Below the pieces are notes generated by a model. The model was not told the DNA's origin and did no database searches. It saw nothing but the letters and a program-made list of their open reading frames with translations. 64,000 bases of DNA from Aureimonas sp. Leaf324. GTDB taxonomy: Bacteria > Pseudomonadota > Alphaproteobacteria > Rhizobiales > Rhizobiaceae. Each line of letters opens with the position of its first letter. Position 1 is the first letter of the stretch. The DNA lies in the NCBI RefSeq assembly GCF_001423245.1, contig NZ_LMOH01000012.1, positions 64,518 to 128,517 of the forward strand. The letters run 5' to 3'. This document shows, piece after piece, positions 8,778 through 55,021 of this stretch. The translations under genes were made by a program, and so were the position numbers.

Positions 8778-8795
8778 CTATAACCCTCCTTTATA
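8778..8795. promoter_or_regulatory. Shared 18-bp LysR-type operator, copy A (cupin/aldolase)
   Basis: CTATAACCCTCCTTTATA matches the repeated pattern CTATM-N8-TTATM and contains the LysR T-N11-A core. It sits in the divergent region 92 bp from the cupin start and 122 bp from the aldolase start. Partial ACTATAGATC (8731) and CCTATAGGC (8758) elements nearby may be secondary half-sites. Confidence 0.7.
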
Positions 8796-8917
8796 CGGAA
8801 TGTCGTCCGCACTTCCGTACCGCTTGCTAAGCTTGGGACCGAGTAGCATTCAATTGCGCCAAGTTCGCCATACCCGGCGACAACATGGCCGGAACGGCCG
8901 CGAGGGGCCCGTTTATT

Positions 8918-9706
8918 ATGTCGATGATCGAGATTCCGCTAAAGAACGCCATGAAGGCCAAGATGGACGCGGGCGAACTCGCCGTCGGCATGATCGTGCG
9001 TCTCATGCGGAACGTCGAGATCGCGGCGATCGCGAAGAGCGCCGGCTTCGACAGCCTGTACGTCGATCTGGAACATTGCAGCTTCTCGCTCGAGACGGTC
9101 AGCCAGATCAGTCTCACCGCAGCCGCCCTCGGAGTGACCCCGCTCGTGCGCGTCGCGGGCATCGATACCGCCGAGATCGGTCGTGTGCTCGAGTCCGGCG
9201 CACAGGGCGTCATCATTCCTCACATGGAGACCAAGGCGGACGCCGAGCTGGTCGTGGAGGCGGCGAAGTTCCCTCCTCGCGGCCGTCGCTCCCTCCTCGG
9301 CATCAACCCCCACACCCTGTTCAAGGGCGGTCCTGCCGCCGAGGTCATGGAGAAGATGGACGCCGCGACCCTCGTGGTCGGCATGATCGAGTCGGTCGAT
9401 GCCATCGAGAAGGCGGACGAGATCGCATCCGTCGACGGGCTCGACATGCTCCACGTCGGTACCAACGATCTCTGCAACTCGCTGGGAGTTCCCGGCCAGC
9501 TCGATCACCCCGACGTGCGCGACGCGTACGCCCACATAGCATCCGTCTGCCGGGCACGTGGCAAGCACCTCGGCATCGGCGGCCTAAATTCGAGGCCCGA
9601 CATCGCTCGAGAGATCATCGGGCTGGGCGCCCGTTACGTCTCGGCAGGCAGCGACACGGGTTTCCTGATGAATGCGGCGACCTCCGCCGCCCGCGCATTT
9701 GCCTGA
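8918..9706 (+). CDS. HpcH/HpaI-family class II aldolase
   Basis: A 262-residue protein from ATG 8918; an in-frame ATG at 8885 would add eleven uncharacteristic residues. Features of the pyruvate-dependent class II aldolase/citrate lyase fold are VDLEHCSFS (catalytic His region), GVIIPHMETKADAE, GMIESVDAIEKADEI (metal Glu) and MLHVGTNDLCNSLG (metal Asp). Such enzymes cleave 2-keto-3-deoxy or 4-hydroxy-2-keto acids to pyruvate and an aldehyde. It is followed by an SDR and an aldehyde dehydrogenase, so the aldehyde product may be oxidised by the latter (inference). Its promoter carries the shared 18-bp operator. Confidence 0.88.
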   Translation: MSMIEIPLKNAMKAKMDAGELAVGMIVRLMRNVEIAAIAKSAGFDSLYVDLEHCSFSLETVSQISLTAAALGVTPLVRVAGIDTAEIGRVLESGAQGVIIPHMETKADAELVVEAAKFPPRGRRSLLGINPHTLFKGGPAAEVMEKMDAATLVVGMIESVDAIEKADEIASVDGLDMLHVGTNDLCNSLGVPGQLDHPDVRDAYAHIASVCRARGKHLGIGGLNSRPDIAREIIGLGARYVSAGSDTGFLMNAATSAARAFA

Positions 9707-9800
9707 TCGCCCGCCTGCGGTCCCTCGCCTCGGGTCGTCCCGAGGATCGCGGCTGCAGGTCGTCCTCCCGAAGCTTCGTCACATCGACCGGAGAAACGCC

Positions 9801-10625
9801 GTGAACTTCGCCGCCACACAGACCAAGCAGAACGCCGATCTCTCGGCGGATGCCCGCAACTTCGGGGTCCAGGACCGCGTGGTTCTCGTCACCGGCTCGG
9901 GCCAGGGCATCGGGCGCGAACTCGCCCGCCAGTTCGCCGCCGCCGGGGCGAAACTCGTCGTTGCCGATCTGAACCTCGACAAGGCCGGCGCGGTCGCGGA
10001 CGAGATCGGTACCGCGGGGGGCGAGGCGCTATCTCTATCCGTCGACGTATCGAGCCGCGAAGCCGTCGAGAAGATGGTCGCGTCCACGATCGAGCGCTAC
10101 GGCCGTATCGACGTCCTGATCAACAACGCCTCGATCTTCTCTGCCCTGATCAAGCGTCCGTTCGACGAAATCCCGACGGAAGAGTGGCAGAGCGTCATGA
10201 ACATCAACGTCAACGGCGTATTCTACTGCGCCAGTGCCGTAGCCAAGCCGATGAAGGAGCGCGGCTTCGGACGCATCATCAACATCTCCTCCGCCTCCGT
10301 GCATCGAGGCACGAAGAACTACCTGCACTACGTGACCTCCAAGTCGGCGTTGATCGGCATGACCAACTCGATGGCGCGTGAACTTGGGCCCCACGGCGTC
10401 ACGGTGAACTGCATCAGGCCCGGCACCGTCGCGACGGAGGTTCCAGCCCGCGTCGCGAGCCTGACGCCGGAGGTCCTTCAGCGCAACATCGACCTGCAGT
10501 GCATCCCGCGCACGCTGGTTCCATCCGACCTCGTCGGGCTCTCGATGTTCCTGAGCACGCCGGCGTCCGGCTTCATCACCGGTCAGACGATCGCCTGCGA
10601 CGGCGGCTACACGCACAGCTTCTGA
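9801..10625 (+). CDS. SDR family NAD(P)-dependent oxidoreductase
   Basis: A 274-residue SDR starting at GTG 9801, with GGAG seven bases ahead; the frame is open back to 9672 without SDR features. It shows TGSGQGIG, NNAS in place of NNAG, and Ser in NISSAS with YVTSK as the catalytic Tyr/Lys. It ends in ITGQTIACDGGYTHSF. It is the second gene of the aldolase-SDR-aldehyde dehydrogenase operon, 94 bp after the aldolase and 21 bp before the dehydrogenase. It probably oxidises a sugar-acid or hydroxy-acid intermediate; the substrate is not identifiable. Confidence 0.9.
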   Translation: MNFAATQTKQNADLSADARNFGVQDRVVLVTGSGQGIGRELARQFAAAGAKLVVADLNLDKAGAVADEIGTAGGEALSLSVDVSSREAVEKMVASTIERYGRIDVLINNASIFSALIKRPFDEIPTEEWQSVMNINVNGVFYCASAVAKPMKERGFGRIINISSASVHRGTKNYLHYVTSKSALIGMTNSMARELGPHGVTVNCIRPGTVATEVPARVASLTPEVLQRNIDLQCIPRTLVPSDLVGLSMFLSTPASGFITGQTIACDGGYTHSF

Positions 10626-10646
10626 GCCTACGACAGGACGGATCCC

Positions 10647-12101
10647 ATGATCTCCTACGAGAACCACTTCATCGACGGACAGTGGGTGAAACCGTCGAAC
10701 GCTCACCTGAAGCCATCCATCGATCCGTACACCGAGACGCCGTTCGCGATGGTCACATCCGGGGGAACGGCCGACGACGTCGATCGGGCCGTCATGGCGG
10801 CGCGGCGTGCCTTCGCATCGTTCTCGCGAACCAGCCTCGACGAACGGATCGCTCTTCTCGACCGCATCGCGGCAGCCTACGAGGAACGGGTCGACGAGAT
10901 CTCGCTGCTGATGGCCCGAGAGGTCGGCATTCCGGTCAGTGCACGCGCACAGGCGACGGGTCCCGTGGGCCATATCAGGGTGGCCAGGGATCTTCTCCGG
11001 AGCTACAGCTTCGACAAGCAGCTCGACGGCACGATCGTCCGCCGGGAGCCGATCGGCGTATGTGCCCTGATCTCCCCCTGGAACTGGCCGATGCAGACGC
11101 CGGTGATCAAGGCGATCTACGGTATCGCCGCAGGCTGCACCGTCGTCCTCAAGCCGTCGGACGCCTCGCCGATCACCGCGATCGTCATGGCCGAGATCTT
11201 CGAGAAGGCCGGCGTACCGCAGGGCGTCTTCAACCTCGTCCTGGGCAAGGGACGCGAGGTCGGAGCGGCACTCTCGATCCACCCCGAGGTGGACATGATC
11301 TCCTTCACCGGCTCGACCGGAGCCGGTGCGAAGGTCGGAGAGGCTGCTGCCCGGACCGTCAAGCGCGTCTCGCTGGAACTCGGCGGCAAGTCGGCGAACA
11401 TCGTCCTGAAGGATGCCGACATCGAGAAGGCAGCCCGGTGGAACGTCCAGCGGTGCTTCTTCAATGCCGGACAGTCGTGCCACGCCCCGAGCCGGATGCT
11501 CGTGCACAAGGACCAGATGGATCAGGCGGTTTCATTCCTCGTCGACGAGGCTTCTCGATACCGCCTCGGAGATCCGAAGGAGGCCGAGACGACGATGGGG
11601 CCGGTCGTCAATCAGGCGCAGTTCGACAGGATCCAGCGATACATCCAGGTCGGCATCGACGAAGGAGCGACGCTCGCCTGCGGAGGTCCCGGCAAGCCCG
11701 ACGGACGGAACCAGGGATACTTCGTCAGGCCGACCGTGTTCGGCAACGTCGCCCCGGAAGCGACGATCGCCAGGGAGGAGATCTTCGGTCCGGTGCTGGC
11801 CGTAACCCCCTACTCGACGGAGGCGGAGGCGTTGGACATCGCGAACGACAGCCCCTACGGCCTCGGAGGCTACGTGTTCGGAGGGGACCGTCGACGGTCC
11901 TTCGAGTTCGCAGCCGGTCTACGCGCCGGTCGGATCTGCTTCAACGGGGCCGCGACGAACTCGGTCACGCCGATGGGTGGCTACAAGCAATCCGGGATCG
12001 GTCGGTCGATGGGAGCCGTCGGGCTCGAGGAGTATCTCGAGATCAAGTCGATCTACGGCTTCGAGGATGAAGCCGGCCGCCTTCCGGAATTTGCTGCCTG
12101 A
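10647..12101 (+). CDS. Aldehyde dehydrogenase (NAD(P)+)
   Basis: A 484-residue ALDH-superfamily enzyme. The landmarks are SPWNWPMQTP, VVLKPSDASP (cofactor Lys), SFTGSTGAG, ELGGKSANIV (general-base Glu) and NAGQSCHAPSR (catalytic Cys), with REEIFGPVLAV near the C-terminus. It is third in an operon behind the aldolase and an SDR, so it is a good candidate to oxidise the aldolase's aldehyde product to an acid (inference). A strong hairpin follows 24 bp after the stop. Confidence 0.92.
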   Translation: MISYENHFIDGQWVKPSNAHLKPSIDPYTETPFAMVTSGGTADDVDRAVMAARRAFASFSRTSLDERIALLDRIAAAYEERVDEISLLMAREVGIPVSARAQATGPVGHIRVARDLLRSYSFDKQLDGTIVRREPIGVCALISPWNWPMQTPVIKAIYGIAAGCTVVLKPSDASPITAIVMAEIFEKAGVPQGVFNLVLGKGREVGAALSIHPEVDMISFTGSTGAGAKVGEAAARTVKRVSLELGGKSANIVLKDADIEKAARWNVQRCFFNAGQSCHAPSRMLVHKDQMDQAVSFLVDEASRYRLGDPKEAETTMGPVVNQAQFDRIQRYIQVGIDEGATLACGGPGKPDGRNQGYFVRPTVFGNVAPEATIAREEIFGPVLAVTPYSTEAEALDIANDSPYGLGGYVFGGDRRRSFEFAAGLRAGRICFNGAATNSVTPMGGYKQSGIGRSMGAVGLEEYLEIKSIYGFEDEAGRLPEFAA

Positions 12102-12125
12102 CACGGCCGCCAGCGAACTGACTGC

Positions 12126-12165
12126 GCCGGGCGCTCACGACGGATCGTGGGCGCCCGGCTTCGTT
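12126..12165 (+). terminator. Rho-independent-type terminator after the aldolase operon
   Basis: GCCGGGCGC-T-CACGA (12126-12140) pairs with TCGTG-G-GCGCCCGGC (12145-12159) around a CGGA tetraloop, a 15-bp stem with one T-G wobble, followed by TTCGTT. It is placed 24 bp after the aldehyde dehydrogenase stop. The rest of 12166-12327 holds no recognisable feature. Confidence 0.8.
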
Positions 12166-12327
12166 GATCGGTCGGAACCTTATCTGGCCCACCGCACGGG
12201 ACGCCTGCATTGTCGCCAATCAAACCGCATGACCGCCGTTATTAGGCCGCGCACCAGCGGTCCCCTCGCCCCTGTATGGGTAGGTGGGTGACCGCGACGA
12301 GGAGCCGCGATCGTTTGGAGCGTACCG

Positions 12328-13821
12328 TCAACGCTGGACGTAGACGCTCTTCGTGTAGAGGTAGTTGTCGAGGTGTGCGAGACTACCCTTCGCTCCGTAA
12401 CCGCTCATCTTGGCACCATTGAAGCCGACGAGCGGATCGATCAGGCCGTAGCAGTTCACCCACATGACACCGGCGTGGATGCGATCGACGACGGTCAGGG
12501 CCGTAGAGACGTCCCGCGACCAGACGGCGCCAGCCAGACCATACTCGGTCTGATTTCCGATGCGGATGGCGTCCTCGACGTCATCGAAGGGAATGATCGA
12601 TACGACAGGGCCGAAGATTTCCTCACGAGCGATCCTCATGTCCATGTCGACGCCGGCGAAGACGGTCGGTTGGACGAAGTACCCGTCGGCATACTGACCG
12701 GTCAGGGCATTTCCTCCGGTGACGAGTCTCGCTCCCTCCGCTCGGCCGGCGTCGACGTACGACAGGACCGTATCCCGTTGCTTCGTCGAGATCACCGGCC
12801 CGAGCTGGGCGCTCGGATCCATCGCCGGCCCCACACGGAGCGTCTCGACGAATGCCGAAAACCGCGAGGTGAACTCGTCCGCGATCCTTCGTTGCACCAG
12901 AAGGCGCGTACCGGCGAAGCAGACCTGCCCGGAGTTTCCGAACACGCCCAAGGCCGCACCGGGCACAGCCTTGTCCAGGTCCGCGTCGGCGAAGACGATG
13001 TCGGGCGACTTGCCTCCGAGTTCGAGCTGCAGACGCTTGATGTTGACCTTCGAGGCATCGATGATCCGTCGTCCGGTCTCGGTCGATCCCGTGAAGGCGA
13101 TCCGGTCGACGTCCGGGTGACGCGCCAGGGCGTCTCCGGCCGTAGAGCCATGCCCCGTGACGACGTTGACGACGCCCTTCGGAAGCCCGATCCCATGAAG
13201 CAGCTCGACGAGATACAGGATGCTGAGCGACGCCTCGGCCGCCGGCTTCAGGACGGTCGTGCATCCGGTCGCCATGACTGCCCCGACGATCCACCAGATG
13301 GCGGTCAGGGATCCGTTCCACGGAACGATGCCGGCGACGACGCCCGCTGGAGCCCGGATCGTCATCGTCGTGACGTCGCCGGGCAGGCCGTTCTGGATGG
13401 TCTCGCCGCGGATGTTAAGCGCCATCGACGCGAAGAACTGAACCATGCGGAGGGCAGCGGCCTTCGAGCCACGCGTGCGAGAGATCGGCGCCCCCATGTC
13501 GAGAGTCTCGATCGATGCGATGTCGTCGAAGTTCTCGTTCAGTAGCTGATACGCCCTGAACAGAAGCGCCTGCCGGTCGTACGGCGTCCAGTGCCTCCAC
13601 TCCCCCTCGAAGGCGGCTCGCGCAGCGCGCACGGCCTTCTCGACGTCGTCGGCCTCGCCGGCGGCCAGATGTCCGAGAACGACACCCGACGATGGATCGA
13701 ACGTCTCGATGGTCCCACCTCCGACGGCCTCCACCAGACCACCGTCGATGATGAGTCGATGGGAACCACGATCGAGGAAGCGTCTTGCAGCGTCGCCGAT
13801 CTCGAACGTCTGGGAAGTCAT
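12328..13821 (-). CDS. Aldehyde dehydrogenase (NAD(P)+)
   Basis: A 497-residue ALDH from ATG 13821, preceded by GAGGA nine bases ahead; the frame runs open to 14061 but overlaps the alcohol dehydrogenase there, so the longer form is rejected. Landmarks: VPWNGSL, TVLKPAAEAS (cofactor Lys), AFTGSTETGR, ELGGKSPDIV (Glu), NSGQVCFAGTR (catalytic Cys) and REEIFGPVVSI. It lies 124 bp behind a zinc alcohol dehydrogenase on the same strand. The pair would take an alcohol to an acid through an aldehyde. A LysR gene diverges upstream of the pair and probably controls it (inference). Confidence 0.92.
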   Translation of the reverse strand: MTSQTFEIGDAARRFLDRGSHRLIIDGGLVEAVGGGTIETFDPSSGVVLGHLAAGEADDVEKAVRAARAAFEGEWRHWTPYDRQALLFRAYQLLNENFDDIASIETLDMGAPISRTRGSKAAALRMVQFFASMALNIRGETIQNGLPGDVTTMTIRAPAGVVAGIVPWNGSLTAIWWIVGAVMATGCTTVLKPAAEASLSILYLVELLHGIGLPKGVVNVVTGHGSTAGDALARHPDVDRIAFTGSTETGRRIIDASKVNIKRLQLELGGKSPDIVFADADLDKAVPGAALGVFGNSGQVCFAGTRLLVQRRIADEFTSRFSAFVETLRVGPAMDPSAQLGPVISTKQRDTVLSYVDAGRAEGARLVTGGNALTGQYADGYFVQPTVFAGVDMDMRIAREEIFGPVVSIIPFDDVEDAIRIGNQTEYGLAGAVWSRDVSTALTVVDRIHAGVMWVNCYGLIDPLVGFNGAKMSGYGAKGSLAHLDNYLYTKSVYVQR

Positions 13822-13945
13822 TTCGCGTTCCTCGAAGTCGATGTCGTTGAGGGTTGGAGCCGGCGGGCCGTCGCTTCGGGGACCCCCTGGAGCAAGCGCT
13901 TTGAAGCCAGGTCTGCCGGATCGGCCATGGTCTCCGGAAGCCCGG

Positions 13946-14974
13946 TCAGTCGAAGACGAAGACGCCCTTGCCGATCTTCTTCTGATCGAAAAGACCGTAA
14001 GCTTCCTCCGCCTGCTCCAGCCGGAACTCGTGGGTGAAGAGTTCGTCCACCGGGAGGCCACGTTCCATTACGAAGTCCGAGCAATCCGACTGCAGGTTCT
14101 TCGAGAACGTGAGGGATCCGAGGACCGACCGGTTCTGCAGGATGATGTCGTTGCTGTGGAACTCCACGTTCCCTGTCACGCCGATCATGACGGTGGTGCC
14201 CCAGGTCCTGGTGCATCGGATCGCCTGGCGCCGCGCCTCGACGTTCGCGCTGCATTCGACCGCCTTGTCCGCCCCGCTCCCGCCACGGGTGACGTCCCGG
14301 ATCGCCTGAACAGGCTCGACTTCCAGCGGGTTGATGACGATGTCGGCCCCGAACCTCCGCGCCATGGCGAGGCGCTCCGCCCCGACATCCAGTGCGATCA
14401 CCCTCGCCCCCATCGCCTTCGCGAACATCGTGACGCTCAGACCGACCGGTCCCTGCCCGAAGACGGCGACGGTATCGTCTCCCGAGAGGTCGATGCGTTT
14501 GAGGGCGGCATAGGCGGTACCGCTTCCGCAGGCGACCGCCGCACCGGCTTTGAACGTCATGTCGTCGTGCAGCCTGATCAGCGTATGCGCCGGTACCTTC
14601 ATGAATTCCGCGTGCGCCCCGTGACCGTTCAGCCCTCCGTAGACGACACGATCGGTCTCGCAGAGCTGTGTCCACCCCGAGCGACAGTGACTGCAGGTCC
14701 TGCATCCGTCGTAGTGGTGGACCATCACCCGATCGCCGACTCGGGCTTCGGCAGGGCGCACGGCCGATCCGACGAGTTCGACGACGCCACAGGGTTCATG
14801 CCCCTCGATGACGATCTGATCCTCGCGTCGACGGGGCTCGTGCAGGTGATGGAGATCGCTCCCGCACATTCCGGAAGCCTTCATGCGGATCACCACCTCG
14901 TCCGGTCCCGGCACCGGATCGGGGAACTCCCGCAGCTCGAGTTTCCCCTCCCCGAGAAATACGACGGCCTTCAT
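13946..14974 (-). CDS. Zinc-dependent alcohol dehydrogenase (MDR family)
   Basis: A 342-residue medium-chain dehydrogenase starting at ATG 14974 with GGGAGAAG in front. It has catalytic zinc ligands in SGMCGSDLHHL and IEGHEPCG, the structural-zinc Cys series in GCRTCSHCRSGWTQLC, and the Rossmann motif GQGPVG. It is NAD(P)-dependent and cytoplasmic. It heads the operon with the aldehyde dehydrogenase at 12328 and diverges from a LysR gene across 334 bp. A close relative is at 53698-54729 with matching MCGSDLH and VMVHHYHGC stretches, so the two may act on similar substrates. The exact alcohol is unknown. Confidence 0.92.
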   Translation of the reverse strand: MKAVVFLGEGKLELREFPDPVPGPDEVVIRMKASGMCGSDLHHLHEPRRREDQIVIEGHEPCGVVELVGSAVRPAEARVGDRVMVHHYDGCRTCSHCRSGWTQLCETDRVVYGGLNGHGAHAEFMKVPAHTLIRLHDDMTFKAGAAVACGSGTAYAALKRIDLSGDDTVAVFGQGPVGLSVTMFAKAMGARVIALDVGAERLAMARRFGADIVINPLEVEPVQAIRDVTRGGSGADKAVECSANVEARRQAIRCTRTWGTTVMIGVTGNVEFHSNDIILQNRSVLGSLTFSKNLQSDCSDFVMERGLPVDELFTHEFRLEQAEEAYGLFDQKKIGKGVFVFD

Positions 14975-15207
14975 GATCTTCTCCCATTCGCGGACATCGG
15001 GTCGGAATTGGCGGATCCATGAGCGCGCCAAGGGCTCCGCAGGCGGGACCGCCTCCGAATGCGCCGAATGGCTGCAGAGATCACGGATGGGCCGCCCTCG
15101 CGGCGGGACGCCTCTTCCTGGTTCGGAAGCGTCCTGTTCACCCAACTCAGGAGTAGGTGATTTCCGGCCCCGACGGAACGGGAGCTTCACGGCCCGCCGT
15201 GGAGGCG

Positions 15208-15221
15208 ATAAGTTTCCTTAT
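15208..15221. promoter_or_regulatory. Candidate LysR operator between alcohol dehydrogenase and LysR genes
   Basis: ATAAGTTTCCTTAT is an inverted repeat (ATAAG/CTTAT, 4-bp spacer) in the 334-bp divergent region 14975-15308, 88 bp before the LysR start. It resembles the ATAA...TTAT core of the repeated 18-bp site but is one base shorter, as might suit the paralogous LysR at 15309. No other structure was seen in the gap. Confidence 0.45.
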
Positions 15222-15308
15222 GGTCGCCGCGCATCTTCACCGCATGTCTGCTCGGCCGTTCTGACGCTGGATCGGCCGGCAGGATCTCACGACTGGAAAG
15301 GATGCCGC

Positions 15309-16322
15309 ATGGGCGACGATGCGCTCGCGGAAGAGGCTGCCGGACCTCGCAGGCCCGTGGACGCCCGAAAGGTCACCTACTTCGCTCAGATCGTGCTCGA
15401 AGGGAGCCTGAGCAGGGCTGCGAAGGTTCTCGGGCTCTCCCAACCGGCCCTCTCCATGTCGATGGATAGTCTGGAGAGGGAACTCGGGACGAAGCTTCTC
15501 CGACGTGGTGCCCATGGCGTCGAGCCCACCGAGCAGGGAGAGATCCTCTTCCGGCATGCCCGGAACGTGCTCGAGACGTTACGGACGGCCGAGGACGAGC
15601 TTAAGGGGTCACCTGGGAACAGCCATGGTGTCCTGAGATTCGGGTGCCTCCCGACACTGGCAGGCAGCATCGTGCCAAGGGCGATCCGCCAGTGGCGCGG
15701 CGAGCATCCGCATCTGGAGCTACAGGTTACGGAGCGACCTCAGAACGAGCTTCTGTGGGGTCTTCTGCGCCACGACCACGATTTTTCGATCGGCGTGGTC
15801 GACCCGGCCAACCATGCCTACGGCCTCAGACAACGCGTCCTGTTCCGTGAGCAACTGCACGTCGTGGCAGGCTCCTCGCATCCCCTCGCCGCGCAGGCCG
15901 TCGTGACCCTCGACGACATCATCGAGCATCACTGGGTCACGCCGACGACCGGTTGGCGAAATACGGCCTTGGAAAGAATCCTGGAGCCGGCAGGGCTCAC
16001 GCTCCGGCACAAGGTGACCGTCTGCAGCTCGATGTCCCTCCTCAAGTCGCTCATCACCGACAGCCCCCATCTGGCGCTCCTGCCCGCCCACGCGGTGCAG
16101 GAGGAACTCGCTGATGCGAGGGTCGTCCTGCTGCCATTCCATCAGGTCGAACTGGAGCGAAGCATCGCGGTGTTCCTGAGGGACGGAAGCGAGTTGTCGC
16201 CGCCTGGACAGGCGCTTGTCAGATGGATCCAGCAGCAAGGACGTCGACGCTTCTCTGGCGAGAGCGATGCGGACATCCCGATGCATGCTCCGGCTCGGGC
16301 AGACACCAGGGACGTTCGTTAG
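15309..16322 (+). CDS. LysR family transcriptional regulator
   Basis: A 337-residue regulator from ATG 15309 with GGAAAGGA ahead. The helix-turn-helix spans about residues 20-80 (VTYFAQIVLEGSLSRAAKVL, then LSQPALSMSMDSLERELG), followed by a substrate-binding domain starting near GVLRFGCLPT. It closely parallels the LysR at 25840-26739 in the DNA-binding part, with the same QPALSxSMDxLERELG run, so the two are paralogues. The C-terminus carries an extra roughly 25-residue Arg/Asp-rich tail. It diverges from the alcohol/aldehyde dehydrogenase operon, its likely target, and converges on the TctA gene downstream. Confidence 0.92.
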   Translation: MGDDALAEEAAGPRRPVDARKVTYFAQIVLEGSLSRAAKVLGLSQPALSMSMDSLERELGTKLLRRGAHGVEPTEQGEILFRHARNVLETLRTAEDELKGSPGNSHGVLRFGCLPTLAGSIVPRAIRQWRGEHPHLELQVTERPQNELLWGLLRHDHDFSIGVVDPANHAYGLRQRVLFREQLHVVAGSSHPLAAQAVVTLDDIIEHHWVTPTTGWRNTALERILEPAGLTLRHKVTVCSSMSLLKSLITDSPHLALLPAHAVQEELADARVVLLPFHQVELERSIAVFLRDGSELSPPGQALVRWIQQQGRRRFSGESDADIPMHAPARADTRDVR

Positions 16323-16390
16323 TCGCCTTCGGTCTGCCGGAGCGTTCCCGTCGTGAGGGATGTGGGAAAGGGGTCGACGGCGATCTTCCC

Positions 16391-17893
16391 TCAATCCTCC
16401 TTGAATGCGACCTCACGCGTCTTGCCGAATGCGGGAAGCAGGAGGAACACGAGGAGGATCGCAGCCAGCCCGAGCATGACCGCACTGATCGGCCGCGTGA
16501 CGAACACGCTCGGATCTCCCGCCGAGACCAGGAGGGCCCGACGCAGGAAGTCCTCCATCATGGGCCCCAGGACGAATGCCAGAAGAAGCGGCGTAGGCTC
16601 GGCGTCCAGCTTTCGAAAGACGTACCCGACGATCCCGAACAGTGCGAGCGGAAGGACGTCGAAGCTCGTGTTGTTCAGACTGAAGGCGCCGATCAGGCAG
16701 AACACGATGATGGCGGGATAGAGGAAGTGATACGGGACTGCGGTCATCCGGACCCAGAGCCCGATGAGGGGAAGATTTAGGACGAGCAACATCAGGTTGC
16801 CGACCCACATGGACACGATCAGTCCCCAGAACAGCGTCGGCTGTTCCGTCATGACGGTGGGGCCTGGCTGGATACCCTGGATGATCATCGCCCCGATCAT
16901 GAGCGCCATCGTCGGATTGGACGGGATGCCAAGCGTCAGCATCGGAATGAAGGAGGTCTGGGCGCCGGCGTTGTTCGCCGCTTCCGGACCCGCGACGCCT
17001 TCGATGGCGCCCTTTCCGAACTGATGCGTGTTCCTTGAGACCTTCTTCTCGATGGCGTACGAGGCGAACGAGGCGAGCAGGGCACCGCCGCCCGGCAGGA
17101 TCCCGAGAGCGGAACCGAGTGCGGTGCCCCGCGCCATGGGAGCGAACATCCTCTTCCAGTCGTCCCAGGTCGGATAGGGCCGCTTGATGTTGGTGATGGC
17201 AGGAAGGCGCGTCGATTCATGCTCGAGATTGGCGATGATCTCCCCGATGCCGAACACACCCATCGCCACGACGACGAAGCTCAGGCCGTCTGAGAGTTCG
17301 GGAATGTCGAACGTGAAGCGTCCCATTCCCGTGTTCGTGTCCGTTCCTATGAGGCCCAGCAGCAGACCGATAAGGATCATGCCCAGGGCGTGAAGCAAGG
17401 ATCCTCTTGCCAGGACGATCGAGGCGACGAGCCCGAGCACCATGAGCGAGAAGTACTCTGCGGCACCGAAGCTCAACGCCATCTCCGCCAGAGGAGGCGC
17501 GAAGAGCGCGATGATGACGGTCGCGACCGTGCCCGCGAAGAAGGAGCTGATGGCCGCTGCCGCGAGTGCCCGCCCCGCCTCTCCCTGTCTGGCCATCTGG
17601 TATCCGTCCAACGCGGTGACGATCGACGTCGCCTCGCCGGGGAGATTGATCAGGATCGCCGTCGTCGAGCCGCCGTACTGCGCGCCGTAGAAGATGCCGG
17701 CGAGCATGATGAGCGCAGTCACCGGCGACAGGCCCAGCGTGACAGGTAGAAGCATGGCGATCGTCGCCGTGGGCCCGAGCCCAGGCAGGACTCCGATCGC
17801 GGTACCGAGGAACACCCCGATCAGGCAGTAGAACAGGTTGCTGAAGTTGAGAGCGGTCTCGAGGCCGAGCCAGAGGTTCGAAAGGACGTCCAT
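16391..17893 (-). CDS. tctA: Tripartite tricarboxylate transporter, large permease TctA
   Basis: A 500-residue, highly hydrophobic protein with about twelve membrane segments. TctA hallmarks are IGVLPGLGPTATIAMLLPVT near residue 35, YGAQYGGSTTAILINLPGE near 69 and the internal GxxPG repeat LGILPGGGALLASF with TLGIPSNPTMALMIGA. TctA forms the transport channel with TctB and receives a carboxylate from periplasmic TctC, driven by an ion gradient. It is the last gene of tctC-tctB-tctA on the minus strand, 9 bp after tctB. The substrate class is a di-/tricarboxylate or related acid; the exact one is unknown. Confidence 0.93.
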   Translation of the reverse strand: MDVLSNLWLGLETALNFSNLFYCLIGVFLGTAIGVLPGLGPTATIAMLLPVTLGLSPVTALIMLAGIFYGAQYGGSTTAILINLPGEATSIVTALDGYQMARQGEAGRALAAAAISSFFAGTVATVIIALFAPPLAEMALSFGAAEYFSLMVLGLVASIVLARGSLLHALGMILIGLLLGLIGTDTNTGMGRFTFDIPELSDGLSFVVVAMGVFGIGEIIANLEHESTRLPAITNIKRPYPTWDDWKRMFAPMARGTALGSALGILPGGGALLASFASYAIEKKVSRNTHQFGKGAIEGVAGPEAANNAGAQTSFIPMLTLGIPSNPTMALMIGAMIIQGIQPGPTVMTEQPTLFWGLIVSMWVGNLMLLVLNLPLIGLWVRMTAVPYHFLYPAIIVFCLIGAFSLNNTSFDVLPLALFGIVGYVFRKLDAEPTPLLLAFVLGPMMEDFLRRALLVSAGDPSVFVTRPISAVMLGLAAILLVFLLLPAFGKTREVAFKED

Positions 17894-17902
17894 GTTCCTA
17901 CC

Positions 17903-18391
17903 TCAGAAACCCGACCAGCCCGGAACGATGCCCGAGATCCAAGGTCCGACGAGCGGCATCGGTACGCCGAGACCACGAACGAAGACGAGAGCGCAGAAGG
18001 CAACCATCACGGCCATGCCGATGAGGGCCTTCCATTCGAAGCGAAACCGCTCGCTCGCCGACGCACCCACGAGGATGCTCACCGCCATCGCGACGAGCAG
18101 TCCTGCCGTGTTGACGAGGAACGCGAACGAGAGGACCGAGGCGGTGATCAGTGCCATCGGCTTGAGCGCGAGTCGTCCGACCGGATCCCCCTCGATCCTA
18201 AAGGAGCGGACGATCGCGATCGCACCGACGAGCACGAGCAGGGCGGAGATGACGAACGGGAAATAGCCCGGACCCATACGGGCCGACGAGCCGAAGGGGT
18301 AGTCGCGGCTCACGACGTAGCCTGCGAGACCTGCGAGCGAGTAGATCGCTCCCGTCCAGAAGTCCTTCGGTGCGCGAATGCTGAGACCCAC
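17903..18391 (-). CDS. tctB: Tripartite tricarboxylate transporter, small subunit TctB
   Basis: A 162-residue protein from GTG 18391, preceded by AGGAG nine bases ahead; the frame continues open to 18535 without TctB character. Four hydrophobic segments are visible, with the family's MGPGYFPFVISALLVLVGA motif near residue 40 and a C-terminal membrane hairpin (PLIGM...FVRGLGVPMP). It is the small membrane partner of TctA, located between tctC and tctA in the same operon. The 148-bp gap to tctC carries no clear element. Confidence 0.85.
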   Translation of the reverse strand: MGLSIRAPKDFWTGAIYSLAGLAGYVVSRDYPFGSSARMGPGYFPFVISALLVLVGAIAIVRSFRIEGDPVGRLALKPMALITASVLSFAFLVNTAGLLVAMAVSILVGASASERFRFEWKALIGMAVMVAFCALVFVRGLGVPMPLVGPWISGIVPGWSGF

Positions 18392-20833: not shown

Positions 20834-20841
20834 GCCACCGA

Positions 20842-40440: not shown

Positions 40441-40466
40441 CCCTCTGCCGAGGTCGTCCGCATCGT

Positions 40467-45723: not shown

Positions 45724-45753
45724 GGCCGCGAGAGGATCGGCTGGGAGGCTGGG

Positions 45754-46608
45754 ATGCAGACCCTGACACCGGCGAGGTTCGCCGACGGCTTTATGTTTCT
45801 GGAAGCACCCAAGTGGCGCGAGGGACGTCTCTTCGTCTCGGACGTTTTCGCGCACGAGGTCTGCATCCTCTCGGACGAGGGAGCGGTCGAACGGCGAATT
45901 TCCGTGCCGACGCGACCGTCGGGCCTTGGTTTCCTATCCGACGGGACGCTGATCGTCGCCTCGGCGAAGGACTGCAGGCTGCTTCGCCTGGACGGCGACG
46001 ATCTCGCCGAGCACGCGGACCTTTCGAACGTCGCGAACGGTTGGCTAAACGACTTCGCCATCGACCGGCAGGACCGCATCTACGTCGGTGACTTCGGATA
46101 CGATTTCGTCGCTGGCGATCCACGAAGGACGACTTCGCTCCATCGGGTCGATCCCGACGGTACCTTCGAAGCCGTTGCCCACGAGGTCGATTTTCCAAAC
46201 GGCTCAACGATCGTCGACGAAGGGCGGACGCTGGTCCTCGCAGAGACCTGGGAAGCCCGCATCGCAGCCTTTGACTTGGACGGCTCCGGCAGACTGACGA
46301 ACCGCCGGCTGTTCGCGGATCTCGACGGCCGCCAGCCCGACGGCCTGTGTGCCGACCGCGATGGTGCGCTCTGGGTCGGGATCTACAACACCGGCGAGTT
46401 TCTGAGAGTGCTCGACGGGGGAGAGATAACCCATCGGATCAAGGTCGACGGCTCCGCTATCTCCTGCACTCTCGGCGGCCCGGATCGACGCACACTGTTC
46501 ATGACCGCCTTCCTCGGGACGGACGAGGACATGTCCGCCGGGAAACGGAACAGCGCGATCCTCACGGCACGCGTGGATGTCCCGGGACCATCCGACACGT
46601 TGCCCTGA
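45754..46608 (+). CDS. SMP-30/gluconolactonase family sugar lactonase
   Basis: A 284-residue six-bladed propeller lactonase. Metal-site landmarks are LEAPKWREGRLFVSD near residue 16 (Glu), WLNDFAIDRQDRIYV near 99, VDFPNGSTIVDEGRTL near 147 (Asn) and PDGLCADRDGALWVG near 197 (Asp). It follows the SDR by 30 bp and precedes an aldehyde dehydrogenase by 125 bp. Its counterpart at 202-1104 has the same neighbours (SDR and MmgE/PrpD) on a different operon plan. Confidence 0.88.
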   Translation: MQTLTPARFADGFMFLEAPKWREGRLFVSDVFAHEVCILSDEGAVERRISVPTRPSGLGFLSDGTLIVASAKDCRLLRLDGDDLAEHADLSNVANGWLNDFAIDRQDRIYVGDFGYDFVAGDPRRTTSLHRVDPDGTFEAVAHEVDFPNGSTIVDEGRTLVLAETWEARIAAFDLDGSGRLTNRRLFADLDGRQPDGLCADRDGALWVGIYNTGEFLRVLDGGEITHRIKVDGSAISCTLGGPDRRTLFMTAFLGTDEDMSAGKRNSAILTARVDVPGPSDTLP

Positions 46609-46733
46609 CCCCGACGGGCTGCTCGACCCTCGGCAACGGAGGCCCCTCTCCCGGCATGCCGACCGCGACGGGCCAGTGTTCCAACGATGAAATGCAAGGC
46701 CGCCTCACCGGCGGCCAACCGAGAGAGACCGAC

Positions 46734-48188
46734 ATGAGCGACACTCCGAAACCCGCCTATCCCCGCATCGGACTCCTGATCGACGGCGAGTGGATCTACG
46801 ACCGTCCGACGCTGTGCGACGTCGAGAACCCGAGCGACGAGTCGATCATCGGTCAGGTTCCCAAGGCGACCGCCGAGGATCTCCAGAACGCGCTCGCATC
46901 ATCGGCGCGTGCATTCGACGTCTGGCGTCGCACGCCGCCGTCCGAACGCTCGGCTGTCATGAAGCGGGCCGCTGCCCTCATCCGTGAGCGGGCGTCCATG
47001 ATCGCCCCGATCTTCACGATGGAACTCGGCAAGACGATCGCCGAGTCCCTCGCCGAGATCGAGCGTTCCGCGACGTTCCTCGACTGGGATTCGGAGGAGC
47101 TTCGCCGTCTCTACGGCCGCATCGTCCCGACAGATCCTCCGATCCAGCAGTTCGTGGTCCGGGAGCCCATCGGGCCGGTGGCAGCCTTCACGCCGTGGAA
47201 CGTGCCCATGAGCGCTCCATCGCGGAAGGTGAGCGCCTCCCTGGCGGCAGGCTGCTCCGTCATCCTGAAACCCGCGGAGGAGACCCCGGCGACGGCGTGT
47301 CTGTTCGCTCAGTGCTTCATCGACGCCGGCCTCCCGAAGGGGGTCCTCAACGTCGTCTTCGGCGATCCCGACGAGGTGTCTCATACCCTTGTACTGTCTC
47401 CGATCACCCGGCTCGTGACGCTGACGGGCTCGATCCACGTCGGCAAGCACCTTACCCGGCTTGCCGCGGAGACGATGAAGCCCGTCCTGATGGAACTCGG
47501 CGGCCACGCGCCGGTGCTGATCGATGAGAACGTCGACGTGGACGGCGTCGCCCAGATGGCTGTGAACTGGAAGTTCCGTATGGCGGGCCAGTTCTGCTCT
47601 GCCCCGTCGCGCTTTCTCATCCACAGGTCGGTCTACGGCGACTTCGTCGAGAGCCTAGCCTCGAAGGCGAGCAAGCTGAAAGTCGGCGACGGTTTCGAGG
47701 AAGGGGTCCAGATGGGACCCCTCGCGAACCGGCGACGTCTGGCGGCGATGGCGGATCTCGTCGAGGACGCGGTCTCGAACGGAGCGAGGATCGCGACCGG
47801 AGGTCAGCGCGTCGGCAACCGCGGTTGGTTCTACGCGCCGACCGTACTGGCCGACGTGCCCCTGGAAGCGCGCATCATGAGCGAGGAGCCGTTCGGACCG
47901 ATCGCGCCCTGCGCCTCGGTAGACTCGATGGACGAAGCGCTGGAGATCAGCAACAGTCTCGAGATGGGGCTTGCCGCGTTCGTCTTCACGAACTCCATGC
48001 AGCGTGCGGATCACCTTGCGCGGGAACTCCAGGTCGGCTCCGTCGCCTTGAACGTCTTCACGAGTCCCGGTGCCGACGCCCCCTTCGGAGGGTATCGGGA
48101 AAGCGGTATCGGACGCGAGGGCGGCCCCGAGATGTACCACAGCTACACCGTGGCCAAGACCATCGCGGAGCGCCGGATCGCGGTGTGA
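46734..48188 (+). CDS. Aldehyde dehydrogenase (NAD(P)+)
   Basis: A 484-residue ALDH from ATG 46734; the open frame extends back to 46347 within the lactonase gene and is not used. Landmarks: TPWNVPMSAP, VILKPAEETPA (cofactor Lys), TLTGSIHVG, ELGGHAPVLI (Glu), MAGQFCSAPSR (catalytic Cys), SEEPFGPIAP. It is the third gene of the operon and would oxidise an aldehyde made later in the pathway. A perfect hairpin follows 61 bp after the stop. Confidence 0.92.
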   Translation: MSDTPKPAYPRIGLLIDGEWIYDRPTLCDVENPSDESIIGQVPKATAEDLQNALASSARAFDVWRRTPPSERSAVMKRAAALIRERASMIAPIFTMELGKTIAESLAEIERSATFLDWDSEELRRLYGRIVPTDPPIQQFVVREPIGPVAAFTPWNVPMSAPSRKVSASLAAGCSVILKPAEETPATACLFAQCFIDAGLPKGVLNVVFGDPDEVSHTLVLSPITRLVTLTGSIHVGKHLTRLAAETMKPVLMELGGHAPVLIDENVDVDGVAQMAVNWKFRMAGQFCSAPSRFLIHRSVYGDFVESLASKASKLKVGDGFEEGVQMGPLANRRRLAAMADLVEDAVSNGARIATGGQRVGNRGWFYAPTVLADVPLEARIMSEEPFGPIAPCASVDSMDEALEISNSLEMGLAAFVFTNSMQRADHLARELQVGSVALNVFTSPGADAPFGGYRESGIGREGGPEMYHSYTVAKTIAERRIAV

Positions 48189-49899: not shown

Positions 49900-49914
49900 A
49901 TAGATCGTATCTAT
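49900..49914. promoter_or_regulatory. Palindrome overlapping the LysR start codon
   Basis: ATAGAT-CGT-ATCTAT spans 49900-49914, a perfect 6-bp dyad with a 3-bp centre that runs into the LysR ATG at 49913. A protein bound here would block translation start or transcription of the LysR gene. It is likely an autoregulatory site also serving the divergent exported gene pair. Confidence 0.55.
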
Positions 49915-50818
49915 GAATACACGAGACGATCTGAGCGATTTGAGAGCTTTCCTGGCCGTCGCGCAGGAACGCAGTTTCACTCGTGCGGCGGCAAAGCTCG
50001 GCGTGTCGCAGCCGACGTTGAGCTATACCGTCCGCCAACTGGAGGCGCGGCTCGGTGTCCGCCTGCTCGCTCGCACCACTCGCAGCGTCGCGCCGACCGA
50101 AGCCGGGGAACGGCTGCTCCAGACGATCGGCCCACTGTACGATGGGATCGTCACGGGCATGAACGCCCTGAGCGAGTACCGCGACAAGCCTGCCGGAACG
50201 ATCCGCATCACTGCGGACGAACACGCGGTGACGACAATCCTCGCCCCCGCTCTCGGGCGCATCCTGCTCCGCTATCCCGACATCAAGGTTGAGGTAACCG
50301 TCGACTTCGGCCTGACCGACATCGTGGCGGAGCGCTTCGACGCCGGCATCCGTATCGGGGAGCAAGTGGCGAAGGACATGATCGCCGTGCCCGTCGGGCC
50401 GGAAATGCGCATGGTCGTCGTGGGCGCGCCGATGTACTTCGCCGGGCGTCACCTACCGAAGAAGCCACAGGACCTCCTCGGTCACAACTGCATCAACCTT
50501 CGTCTGCCGACGTATGGCGGCCTGTACGCTTGGGAGTTCGAAGGCGACGGCCGCGAGCTTCGTGTGCGGGTCGATGGTCAACTCGTGTTCAACAGCACCG
50601 GGCAGATCCACAGGGCAGTGCTCGCCGGGCTGGGAGTGGCCTACCTTCCCGAGGAGCAGGTGCATGCCGACATCCGCGAAGGTCTGCTCGTTCAAGTTCT
50701 CGACGACTGGTGTCCAGCGTTTTCCGGCTACCATCTCTACTATCCGAGCCGCAGGCAGGCTTCGCCCGCGTTCAAGGTTCTAGTCGACAGCCTGCGCTAC
50801 ACCCGCCCTTCGGGATAG
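49913..50818 (+). CDS. LysR family transcriptional regulator
   Basis: A 301-residue LysR of the CrgA/DsdC-like type with DLSDLRAFLAVAQERSFTRAAAKLGVSQPTLSYTVRQLEARLGVRLLARTT as its DNA-binding part (residues 6-57; written here in pieces: LSDLRAFLAV, SFTRAAAKLGVSQPTL, LEARLGVRLLARTT). The effector domain starts near PAGTIRITADEH. It diverges from the exported CMD/cupin genes, its likely target. The RLLARTTRSVAPTEAGERLL linker is typical of this subgroup. Confidence 0.9.
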   Translation: MNTRDDLSDLRAFLAVAQERSFTRAAAKLGVSQPTLSYTVRQLEARLGVRLLARTTRSVAPTEAGERLLQTIGPLYDGIVTGMNALSEYRDKPAGTIRITADEHAVTTILAPALGRILLRYPDIKVEVTVDFGLTDIVAERFDAGIRIGEQVAKDMIAVPVGPEMRMVVVGAPMYFAGRHLPKKPQDLLGHNCINLRLPTYGGLYAWEFEGDGRELRVRVDGQLVFNSTGQIHRAVLAGLGVAYLPEEQVHADIREGLLVQVLDDWCPAFSGYHLYYPSRRQASPAFKVLVDSLRYTRPSG

Positions 50819-52272: not shown

Positions 52273-53613
52273 CTAGACTTCTAGTGTCGCAATCGACGAC
52301 TTCAGAGGCCCTGTAGCCTGTCCCTCCCCGGCTGCCTGGCGCAGTCGGGCGTTGCGGGTCTCAGGCACGAACTGAACCGCCACGACGCCCATGATGGCCA
52401 CGGCGATGACATAGAAGCCGGGTGCGATCGGCGTACCGAAATACCCGACCAGCCACGCCGCGATCAGAGGCGTCGTGCCTCCGAAGATGGCGACCGTCAG
52501 CTGATAGGAAACCGCATGCCCGGTTGCACGGAACGACGTCGGGAAGAACTCCACGGCAGCAGCGAAGGAGGCCCCACCGTAAAGCCCGATGCCGATGCCG
52601 ATCAGCATTTGCCCGACGAGCGCTCCGGTGAAGGTGCCGGCCGACGCGAACTGTAGGGCCGGATAGGCCGCGCACGCGATCCACAGGGCTCCAGCGGTCA
52701 GCACCGGCTTGCGCCCGATACGGTCCGCCATGAACCCACCGACCACTAGGAACATCGACAGGACGAAGACGGCGATCGCGTTCGAAGCAAGCGCGGCATT
52801 CGCGTCCAGGCCAGCCTGTCGGACGAGGAAGGTGTACATGAACCCCAACAGGAGATACGAGCCGACGGTCTGCACAGGTTGGATCAGGAGAAGGTAGAGC
52901 ATCGATCGAAGGCTGGCCCGACGATCCTCGCGCAACTGATGCGCGTCGCTCGTCCGCTTGGCCTCGACGTACTCCTTCGGCTCCTCGAGGTTACGGCGCA
53001 TCCAGAACCCGACGATGCCTATGAGGCCGCCCAGGATGAATGGGAGACGCCAGACCCAGTCCGAGTAGATCTCGGGCCCGGCGGCGAACTGCAGGACGGC
53101 GAGCATGATCGCGACGAAGGCGTTCGGCAGGTGACCGAAGAACCACACGACGCCGACCCAGAAGCCGCGCTTGTCGTCCGGCGCGGACTCCAGGATGTAG
53201 CTCGTGGCACCGCTCGTCTCGCCGCCCATCGCGAAGCCCTGTAGCAGTCGACAGAAGGCGAGCAGGATAGGTGCCGCGATCCCGATCGTCGCGTAGGTCG
53301 GAAGAAAGCCGATCGCAGCGGTCGCGCCGGCCATGAGCCAGATCGTGATCGAAAGGATCCGCACGCGCCCGATCCGGTCGGCAAGATACCCGAAGAACAA
53401 TCCTCCGAGCGGACGTGCGAAGAAGGCGACCGCATAGACGGTGAAGGTGCTCAGGATTGCGGCCTGAGGACTCGACGAGTGGAAAAAGTGCGTGGCGAGG
53501 ATCGGGACCGAGAACCCGAACACCGCGAAGTCGAAGATCTCGCCGAATTGGCCGACCGAGGCCGCCCCGATCTTCTTGCGATTACCCGACAGGGTATCTT
53601 CAGTATGCGCCAT
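52273..53613 (-). CDS. MFS transporter, metabolite:H+ symporter (MHS) type
   Basis: A 446-residue, twelve-segment transporter. MHS/sugar-porter signatures are visible: GQFGEIFDFAVFGF near residue 22, RPLGGLFFGYLADRIGRVR near 67, GFAMGGETSGATSYILE near 126 (the MHS variant of the inter-domain loop), and ADRIGRKPVL. Relatives (KgtP, ShiA, ProP) import organic acids or osmolytes with protons. It precedes the alcohol dehydrogenase at 53698 on the opposite side of the gap and is read on the same strand, downstream of it; the cargo is probably an organic acid. Confidence 0.9.
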   Translation of the reverse strand: MAHTEDTLSGNRKKIGAASVGQFGEIFDFAVFGFSVPILATHFFHSSSPQAAILSTFTVYAVAFFARPLGGLFFGYLADRIGRVRILSITIWLMAGATAAIGFLPTYATIGIAAPILLAFCRLLQGFAMGGETSGATSYILESAPDDKRGFWVGVVWFFGHLPNAFVAIMLAVLQFAAGPEIYSDWVWRLPFILGGLIGIVGFWMRRNLEEPKEYVEAKRTSDAHQLREDRRASLRSMLYLLLIQPVQTVGSYLLLGFMYTFLVRQAGLDANAALASNAIAVFVLSMFLVVGGFMADRIGRKPVLTAGALWIACAAYPALQFASAGTFTGALVGQMLIGIGIGLYGGASFAAAVEFFPTSFRATGHAVSYQLTVAIFGGTTPLIAAWLVGYFGTPIAPGFYVIAVAIMGVVAVQFVPETRNARLRQAAGEGQATGPLKSSIATLEV

Positions 53614-53697
53614 AGTCTCCTCCCAGTGGCGTTGCGATAGGTTCGTGCGATCGCGTCCGCTTCACTCCCGCGGACGGTCGAGCACTAGCGGAAAGGT

Positions 53698-54729
53698 TCA
53701 GAAGACGAAGACGCCCTTCCCGCCCGCCTGGGCATCGAAGTGTCGATAGGCCTCCTCGGCCTGATCAAGCGTCCATCGATCGGTGAAGAGGCGGTCGAGG
53801 TCGAGCCCACGCGACCTGACGAAGTCTGCGCAGGCCTTCTGCCCGACGGTCGACATCGTATAGGACGTCATCACCGTGACCTGCCGGTCCAGCAAAGCCC
53901 TCGTCTCGACGGTGACCTGACCACCGACACCGACCATGCACATGCGGCCCCAGGTCGCGATCGCCTTGAGAGCGGACATCGCGGCCTGCGGAGAGCCGGA
54001 GGTCTCGACGACCAGCGAGACGCCCTTGCCGCCGGTTAGGTCGTGCAGGGCCTCGGTCACGTCGGCGTTCCGAGGGTTGATGGTCTCGTCCGCACCGAAG
54101 CTGCGGGCGAGTTCGAGTCTGTTCTCGTCGAGGTCCACGGCGATCACTCTCGCACCTCGGGTCGCGGCGAGCAGCGTCGCGGAGAGGCCGACCGGCCCCT
54201 GCCCTAGGACGACGATGGTCTCATCCCCTCGCATCTGGGCTCTGTCGAGGGCGCCCCAGGCCGTGCCGGTACCGCAGGCGATCGCTGCACCCGCTTCGAA
54301 GCTGAGGTCGTCGTGCAGGGGCACCAGGGTCGCCGCTGCGACCTTCATGTAGGGAGCGTGTGCACCATGGGCGTTCGCACTGTAGGTGGTCCGCGTCACC
54401 GGCTCACAGAGCTGCGGCCAACCCGTGCGGCAGTGATCGCAGACCGTGCAGCCATGGTAGTGGTGCACCATGACCCGATCTCCGACCTTGGCGACGTGCG
54501 GAAGCACGCCTTGGCCGACGGCAGCGACGACGCCGGCCGGCTCGTGGCCGGCGATCATCCGAGCCTGCGTGGGAACGCTCGGATCGTGCGGAGCGCGGTA
54601 CCAGTGCAGATCGCTGCCGCACATACCCGAAGCCTTGATCTCGACGACGACCTCCCCGTGTCCGGGGGTCGGATCCTCGAAATCGGCGATCACGGTGCGA
54701 CGATCCCCCAGGAAGACCAGGCCCTTCAC
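53698..54729 (-). CDS. Zinc-dependent alcohol dehydrogenase (MDR family)
   Basis: A 343-residue MDR enzyme starting at GTG 54729 with GTGGAG ten bases ahead. It carries MCGSDLHWY and AGHEPAG catalytic zinc ligands, the structural-zinc series in GCTVCDHCRTGWPQLC, and the Rossmann GQGPVG. It closely parallels the enzyme at 13946-14974, including the VMVHHYHGC stretch and C-terminal KGVFVF. It is upstream of the MFS gene and carries a near copy of the shared operator 275 bp upstream (copy F). Confidence 0.9.
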   Translation of the reverse strand: MKGLVFLGDRRTVIADFEDPTPGHGEVVVEIKASGMCGSDLHWYRAPHDPSVPTQARMIAGHEPAGVVAAVGQGVLPHVAKVGDRVMVHHYHGCTVCDHCRTGWPQLCEPVTRTTYSANAHGAHAPYMKVAAATLVPLHDDLSFEAGAAIACGTGTAWGALDRAQMRGDETIVVLGQGPVGLSATLLAATRGARVIAVDLDENRLELARSFGADETINPRNADVTEALHDLTGGKGVSLVVETSGSPQAAMSALKAIATWGRMCMVGVGGQVTVETRALLDRQVTVMTSYTMSTVGQKACADFVRSRGLDLDRLFTDRWTLDQAEEAYRHFDAQAGGKGVFVF

Positions 54730-55003
54730 GAGACGAACTCCACCGGACGAAAGGAGATCGTCCCAAAGGACCCGATTGCGTGCGTGAGAGCTGGGGTGGT
54801 CACGATCCAAGACCCTGCTGGATCGGATACGGGGACTCCCCGTCGGGCGACGTCGTCGAATGAAACCACTGATCTGTTCACGGTGCACCTGGATTGCGAA
54901 TTGGCGCCGCGACGATGTCGTCGTCCAAAGCAGCGTCCTGGGCCAGATACTGACCACCGCCCCCAAGAGCATTCAAGCAACGATGCGGCTCAGAGGCCGC
55001 CGG

Positions 55004-55021
55004 CAATAATATCAGCTTATA
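55004..55021. promoter_or_regulatory. Shared operator near copy F (alcohol dehydrogenase)
   Basis: CAATAATATCAGCTTATA fits CTATM-N8-TTATM except for one base in the first half-site. It is 275 bp upstream of the alcohol dehydrogenase GTG, like copies B and D. It is weaker support than the other five. Confidence 0.45.

Follow-up and report, generated by a model that had tools for sequence, protein, structure and literature searches.

A probable LysR-type regulon marked by a shared palindrome in a catabolic gene island of Aureimonas

The window analyzed here, a stretch of 64,000 nucleotides from Aureimonas sp. Leaf324 with a GC content of 64.5%, carries a catabolic gene island and six copies of a 17-bp palindrome, TATAA-N7-TTATA, which has the T-N11-A spacing of LysR-type binding sites. 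The copies are predicted operators of a regulon dispersed over 46 kb. Operator 1 (8779-8795) is a perfect palindrome, TATAACCCTCCTTTATA, and lies between a cupin-like gene (7846-8685, minus strand) and an HpcH/HpaI aldolase gene (8885-9706, plus strand). Operator 2 (19801-19817, TATAAGCAGCACTGATA), which is doubtful, is centred 295 bp upstream of tctC1 (18540-19514, minus strand). Operator 3 (26906-26922, TATAACCCAAGCTTATC) occupies the region shared by the divergent genes for LysRa, a LysR-type regulator (25840-26739, minus strand), and an aldehyde dehydrogenase (27061-28617, plus strand), as the first-pass annotation of this DNA had noted for the copy next to the LysR gene. Operator 4 (36317-36333, GATAACGCGGAATTATA) is upstream of a sugar ABC importer operon (36529-40440, plus strand). 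Operator 5 (44877-44893, TATAGCCCACCATTATA) separates a gene for an MmgE/PrpD family enzyme (43341-44819, minus strand) from a short-chain dehydrogenase/reductase (SDR) gene whose homology starts at about 44971 (plus strand). Operator 6 (55005-55021, AATAATATCAGCTTATA) is upstream of genes for an alcohol dehydrogenase (53698-54972, minus strand) and a major facilitator superfamily (MFS) transporter (52273-53613, minus strand). The distance from the site centre to the start used is 66-204 bp for operators 1, 3, 4 and 5; operator 6 is 41 bp from the longest open reading frame (ORF) start of the alcohol dehydrogenase. By heuristic gene calls the sites are intergenic; only the one at 44876 was flagged inside an ORF, and the homology of that ORF starts about 80 bp past the site end.

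The element had first been described as an 18-bp pattern, CTATM-N8-TTATM, with five exact matches at 8778, 19801, 26905, 36317 and 44876 and a one-mismatch copy at 55004. All six were recovered at these positions. Five exact matches in the window compare with 0.02 expected from 100 shuffles, in agreement with the earlier hand estimate (about 0.05) that chance is an unlikely source. Allowing one mismatch gives seven matches against 1.11 expected, the two extra ones being the copy at 55004 and the 8778 site read in reverse. The whole Aureimonas assembly (4,415,253 bases in 30 contigs) contains no exact match beyond the five in the window. The idea of one shared operator stands but its 18-bp form does not, because sites elsewhere do not keep the outer C, and the 17-bp palindrome was adopted in its place. 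With at most one mismatch, the palindrome occurs at seven places in the genome. Six are the window sites; the seventh, C12:585677, has a matrix score of 12.4 (the matrix is described below) and lies at or in ORFs with unclear coding signal. No palindrome with up to two mismatches was found in the 20 kb that flank the window to its left and right. Places with exactly two mismatches number 26 in the genome, and the matrix was applied to nine of these, eight outside the window (best score 10.2) and one inside it, at 2003.

Five of the six sites are also found, at up to one mismatch, on the syntenic contig of a second member of the genus, Aureimonas sp. AU22 (genome G004, contig C39, NZ_BBWJ01000039.1), which carries a 96% identical lysRa ortholog. 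Across the five orthologous intergenic regions all 50 arm bases and 83 of the 85 site bases are identical, and the remaining bases are 64-90% identical. Operators 1, 3 and 6 are kept at 17 of 17 bases, with an identity outside the site of 0.81 for operator 3 and 0.64 for operator 6, and operators 4 and 5 keep all ten arm bases. A block at 12064-20967, encoding an aldehyde dehydrogenase, an alcohol dehydrogenase, a second LysR-type protein (LysRb), the tripartite transporter tctABC1 and a further regulator (LysRx), is absent from the AU22 contig, which has about 270 bases in its place. The aldehyde dehydrogenase (66%) and TctC1 (62%) of this block have relatives on a plasmid of Cupriavidus necator NH9.

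Close relatives of LysRa are rare. At E<=1e-50, and with this genome counted each time, they occur in three of 394 genomes of the family, two of 397 of the order and two of 398 of the phylum; within the genus, two of 21 genomes, this one included, have a close ortholog. At E<=1e-40 they are present in 25 plasmid records, 24 from Rhizobium, Sinorhizobium or Ensifer and one from Cupriavidus. Ten islands were examined: those of this genome, AU22, genomes G061 and G680, and six of the 25 plasmids (C. necator NH9, R. leguminosarum Ta6, R. johnstonii 3841 pRL11, E. adhaerens Corn53, S. meliloti T073 and Rhizobium sp. T136). The eight islands outside Aureimonas were scanned, independently of the window, for inverted 5-mers with spacers of 0-20. 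TATAA-N7-TTATA came first of 7668 observed kinds, with 22 copies against 0.03 expected; ranks two to four were shifted readings of the same palindrome. The same listing for the window by itself has the motif outside its top eight, because just one window copy is perfect.

In total, 74 sites at up to one mismatch occur in the ten islands, and the sites are concentrated there. The examined stretch contains six of the seven sites in this genome, five of six in AU22, 14 of 29 in G061, 11 of 20 in G680 and both of those on the NH9 replicon. The corresponding figures for Ta6, pRL11 and Corn53 are 16 of 19, seven of nine and three of seven; T073 has five of six, the sixth 25 kb further, and T136 five of 11, with nine of the 11 within 69 kb. 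Perfect palindromes are nearly confined to the examined stretches (24 of the 25 in the ten genomes or replicons), the other one being at T136 1676853, 7 kb beyond. In the annotated NH9, pRL11 and Ta6 stretches, where annotation is incomplete (61-85% annotated as coding), 23 of 25 sites are clear of annotated genes; of the remaining two, one overlaps a 54-residue hypothetical by five bases and the other lies in an annotated start that precedes the beginning of the homology.

The site stays before the same genes across islands although gene order and strand vary. The divergent cupin and aldolase pair has a site in eight of the ten islands. The MmgE and SDR pair has one in six (this genome, AU22, G061, Ta6, pRL11 and T136), and in the same six the sugar ABC importer is preceded by a site, or by two sites in four of them. 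A TctC2 gene has a site in six islands and a 2-hydroxyacid dehydrogenase gene in five. On the Ta6 plasmid (CP090120.1 805378-823877), the aldehyde dehydrogenases, aldolase, SDR, tartrate dehydrogenase and ABC binding protein match in two or three pieces, which suggests assembly indels or decay.

The 63 sites of the eight non-Aureimonas islands are all distinct as 29-mers. Read on both strands, they have T at position 3 and A at position 15 of the 17-mer in 96% of cases each, figures that are partly due to preselection at up to one mismatch; the geometry itself was recovered independently in the inverted-repeat scan, in line with the earlier remark that a T-N11-A core suits LysR proteins. G is favoured at the second base ahead of the palindrome and C at the second base behind it (72% each), and apart from these and a weak T/A preference in the spacer there is little information beyond the arms. 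A symmetric matrix built from these sites ranks the six window sites first to sixth, with the next best window place at 3.7, a ranking that is not wholly independent because the training sites were chosen at up to one mismatch to the same palindrome. Operators 1, 3, 4, 5 and 6 score 17.7, 21.3, 20.4, 16.2 and 23.5, above every maximum of 30 shuffled windows (1.2-11.4). The copy at 55005, the one-mismatch site of the first-pass annotation, is thus the best of the six and not the poorest, which is 19801 (10.5).

The best candidate for the protein that binds the palindromes is LysRa, which has clear HTH_1 (74.3 bits, cut-off 26.6) and LysR_substrate (115.8 bits, cut-off 28) Pfam domains; the candidacy follows from the presence of LysRa-clade members in the motif islands examined. 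LysRb, encoded at about 15357-16244 on the plus strand with an apparent GTG start, is about 40% identical to LysRa and belongs to the same clade, so both may use the box. It had been overlooked earlier, and it was not found on the AU22 contig. The 17 LysRa-clade proteins of the ten islands are monophyletic with support of 1.0 against 22 other LysR proteins, LysRx and another LysR-type regulator of the window, LysRy; a partial match in NH9 (L074 1892-2191) was left out of the tree. All 17 have the recognition helix QPAL[ST]xS[ML]. Two or three clade members occur in each of five islands besides this one. The motif cluster of the Ta6 plasmid reaches about 66 kb past the two clade members first fetched, and a third member (48%) lies inside the extension; the relative search had listed three places in this record without positions.

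A search that started from the motif and not from the regulator is consistent with this assignment. The stricter pattern GNTATAAN7TTATANC has hits in 22 of the 394 family genomes. Two or more non-identical hits inside 60 kb of one contig occur only in G061 and G680, both of which are among the three genomes with a LysRa-clade gene. In genome G486 the two copies, 15 kb apart, are identical, and the two hits in each of G534 and G539 are widely separated or lie on different contigs.

The motif, its concentration in the islands, its conservation and its co-occurrence with the LysRa clade were observed directly. They are read here as the marks of a genuine LysR-type regulon, in which the sites would be operators of one LysR-type clade (probability about 0.87), and in which the degradation genes are very probably controlled together. 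A dispersed LysR-type regulon, as first proposed, is strongly supported by the independent loci. Five of its window sites appear solid and the inclusion of 19801 with tctC1 is doubtful.

Several observations, in addition to the limit on the matrix ranking, weigh against this reading. LysRa-clade members are present in ten of ten islands, a number that proves little because the islands were found with LysRa as the query; less circular are the motif-only search, the Ta6 extension with its third clade member and the uneven occurrence of IclR, LysRx and LysRy among the islands. The Leaf324 genome itself has no match to the stricter pattern of the motif-only search. Total site numbers per genome, compared with a reversed-pattern control, are seven against three here, six against seven in AU22 and 29 against 78 in G061; since the totals are not above the control in most genomes, the signal is the clustering and not the number of sites. 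Among the 21 genomes of the genus at least 18 have sites with up to one mismatch, mostly scattered among the matches listed, and G017, an Aureimonas without a close LysRa, has 18 sites (control 89) with at least three of them within about 6 kb. No clear peak for a second half-site at a fixed distance was seen among 69 sites. Corn53 and T073 have the cupin and aldolase pair without a site at up to one mismatch. The score of 19801 falls inside the range of the shuffled-window maxima, and the site sits in the block without an AU22 counterpart. Of 28 control LysR loci (107 kb), three (L027, L032 and L048) have a site with up to one mismatch.

These last three one-mismatch palindromes, at L027 256, L032 2747 and L048 1094, share the form TATAGCAA-N3-CTTATA, and the more distant LysR proteins of these loci group in one clade. 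They are perhaps a neighbouring LysR subfamily with an operator of its own.

Other explanations account for parts of the data. The palindromes could be real operators bound by a different regulator of the island, an IclR protein (5831-6643), LysRx (19907-20869) or LysRy (49913-50818). Within the stretches fetched, LysRy relatives occur in seven of the ten islands, a further point against LysRa, and IclR is found in this genome, AU22 and pRL11. However, at more than 80 bits IclR occurs in three of the ten islands and LysRx in the Leaf324 island only, and LysRy was not found in the stretches of about 41 kb from pRL11, T073 and NH9, all of which bear sites. The T-N11-A geometry is moreover of the LysR type, and the predicted CynR repeat is ATAA-n7-TTAT; one of these regulators is quite unlikely to be the binder. 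Alternatively, the sites could be AT-rich words that arose by chance, or ordinary -10 elements of promoters. AT-rich words favour intergenic DNA at this GC content, and the genome counts, mostly not above the reversed-pattern control, fit such an origin. Both explanations were rejected on the shuffles, the absence of the exact pattern from the rest of the genome (with six of the seven palindromes also in the window), the rediscovery of the motif in other genera by the inverted-repeat scan, the conserved arms and the matrix scores, and they have next to no weight. Dispersal of the copies within a repeated mobile element might be expected from islands that are rare and in several cases plasmid-borne, but it would call for long shared flanks, and the 63 non-Aureimonas sites are distinct 29-mers with little information outside the arms; this origin is scarcely credible.

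Another alternative is a division of labour, in which LysRa and LysRb share the operator type and differ in transporters or inducers, 19801 belonging to an acquired LysRb block. In its favour, AU22 lacks the whole block that holds LysRb and tctABC1, and the five other islands mentioned above each have two or three members of the clade. The weakness of 19801 speaks against it, as does the Cupriavidus tctC1 relative (L074 7911-8885), which has no site at up to two mismatches in front of it; this alternative is possible but less likely than not.

Under control by the LysRa clade, LysRa, and perhaps its paralog LysRb, would bind TATAA-N7-TTATA in front of five or more transcription units spread over the 46 kb. 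A LysR tetramer would sit on the palindrome and adjacent DNA and activate transcription once an intermediate is bound. Binding of a pathway intermediate would thus switch the linked units together, most likely by activation. Since an operator adjoins lysRa, LysRa probably controls its own gene as well. Binding by LysRa, the direction of control, the inducer and the substrate are what we infer from the arrangement of sites and genes.

The linked genes, assigned by Pfam, suggest that the island serves to take up and oxidatively degrade a substrate resembling a sugar or an organic acid. Uptake is represented by tripartite tricarboxylate transporters, the sugar ABC importer and the MFS transporter, and oxidation and cleavage by aldehyde and alcohol dehydrogenases, SDRs, an SMP-30 protein, the MmgE/PrpD enzyme and the HpcH/HpaI aldolase. 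Behind operator 1 are aldolase, SDR and aldehyde dehydrogenase genes (8885-12101, plus strand), in the same order in most islands. The cupin-like protein on its other side, a likely regulon member, has weak Cupin_7/Cupin_2 hits below cut-off and no solved relative at E up to 0.1; each of the nine other islands contains a match, at 61-97% identity. The gene behind operator 2 has the Pfam family TctC. Operator 3 is followed by aldehyde dehydrogenase, SDR and tripartite transporter genes (27061-34015, plus strand), operator 4 by the sugar ABC importer and an SDR (36529-41309, plus strand), and operator 5, on its right, by SDR, SMP-30 lactonase-like and aldehyde dehydrogenase genes (44971-48188, plus strand, from the homology start). 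The alcohol dehydrogenase and MFS genes of operator 6 together span 52273-54972 on the minus strand.

The solved proteins nearest to the ABC binding protein are of the ribose/sugar type, and solved relatives of the MmgE/PrpD enzyme are IDS epimerase, IRG1 and cis-aconitate decarboxylase. For the binding protein, MmgE, SDR, SMP-30, cupin and TctC, solved relatives and NCBIfam gave mostly generic names as a substrate clue. The sole curated cut-off pass among ten proteins compared with NCBIfam is a tartrate dehydrogenase (TIGR02089, 585.9 bits against a cut-off of 470.4). In AU22 its gene and a glycerate-kinase-like gene directly follow the aldolase operon; here they are separated from it by the extra block. 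The proposal that one pathway unites the six loci is not supported as stated. On the Ta6 plasmid (L089, CP090120.1 735000-784000), palindromes are found near tannase/feruloyl esterase, chemotaxis receptor and xanthine-dehydrogenase-family genes, and the esterase neighbours are a hint of plant-derived esters as substrate; no tannase/feruloyl esterase gene is among the window genes scanned.

Three other features of the window deserve mention. Genes for a three-subunit xanthine-dehydrogenase-type molybdenum enzyme (55261-59086) adjoin operator 6 and have relatives in several other islands. An AAA_15/AAA_21 ATPase gene beside an opposite-strand RES-domain gene (2113-5642), near the catabolic genes, is kept in AU22. 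A 665-residue ORF at 41342-43339 has no Pfam or NCBIfam match, and the stretch is mostly unaligned to AU22.

The spread of the islands across Rhizobiaceae and Cupriavidus, with one to three paralogous LysR proteins that would share one operator and up to 16 sites in about 98 kb, suggests a portable, self-contained regulon that landing cassettes could join by acquiring the palindrome, a tentative proposal that falls a little short of even odds. For this large catabolic island the analysis names a candidate regulator, its predicted operator and the genes that it would target. R. johnstonii 3841 carries the island too, on plasmid pRL11 and with RL_RS30565 as the lysRa counterpart, which makes the prediction directly testable there, and the presumed use of one operator type by paralogous LysR proteins at the 16 sites on one Rhizobium plasmid offers a usable case for regulon growth on accessory DNA. 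No description of the regulon was found in the open-licence library searched, which omits most subscription journals and preprints.

The best solved-structure match of LysRa is TsaR of Comamonas testosteroni (PDB 3fxq, E 3.7e-25); it is the named regulator of tsaMBCD and is distant from LysRa in sequence. The boxes of the BenM/CatM/CbnR subgroup, ATAC-N7-GTAT, have the same 15-bp geometry as the element here, with arms ATAC against ATAA. BenM and CatM are among seven solved sequences that match LysRa at E up to 1e-15, but the subgroup is distant in sequence and the targets here are not aromatic ring-cleavage genes. The operator type is already known and the palindrome is an ordinary LysR-type box, since a LysR-family consensus, CTATA-n9-TATAG, and a predicted 15-bp CynR repeat, ATAA-n7-TTAT, from E. 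coli cynR-cynTSX are in print (PMC5002191). The CynR repeat is the inner part of the palindrome here, and in both cases regulator and target share an intergenic region; the likeness is one of operators only. CynR has three repeats in one intergenic region, whereas here mostly single sites stand before five or six units over 46 kb, with other genes. Another related system is PcaQ of rhizobia, a LysR-type regulator whose known site is predicted also before a separate uptake operon (PMC4495286), with a different regulator and a different substrate, protocatechuate.

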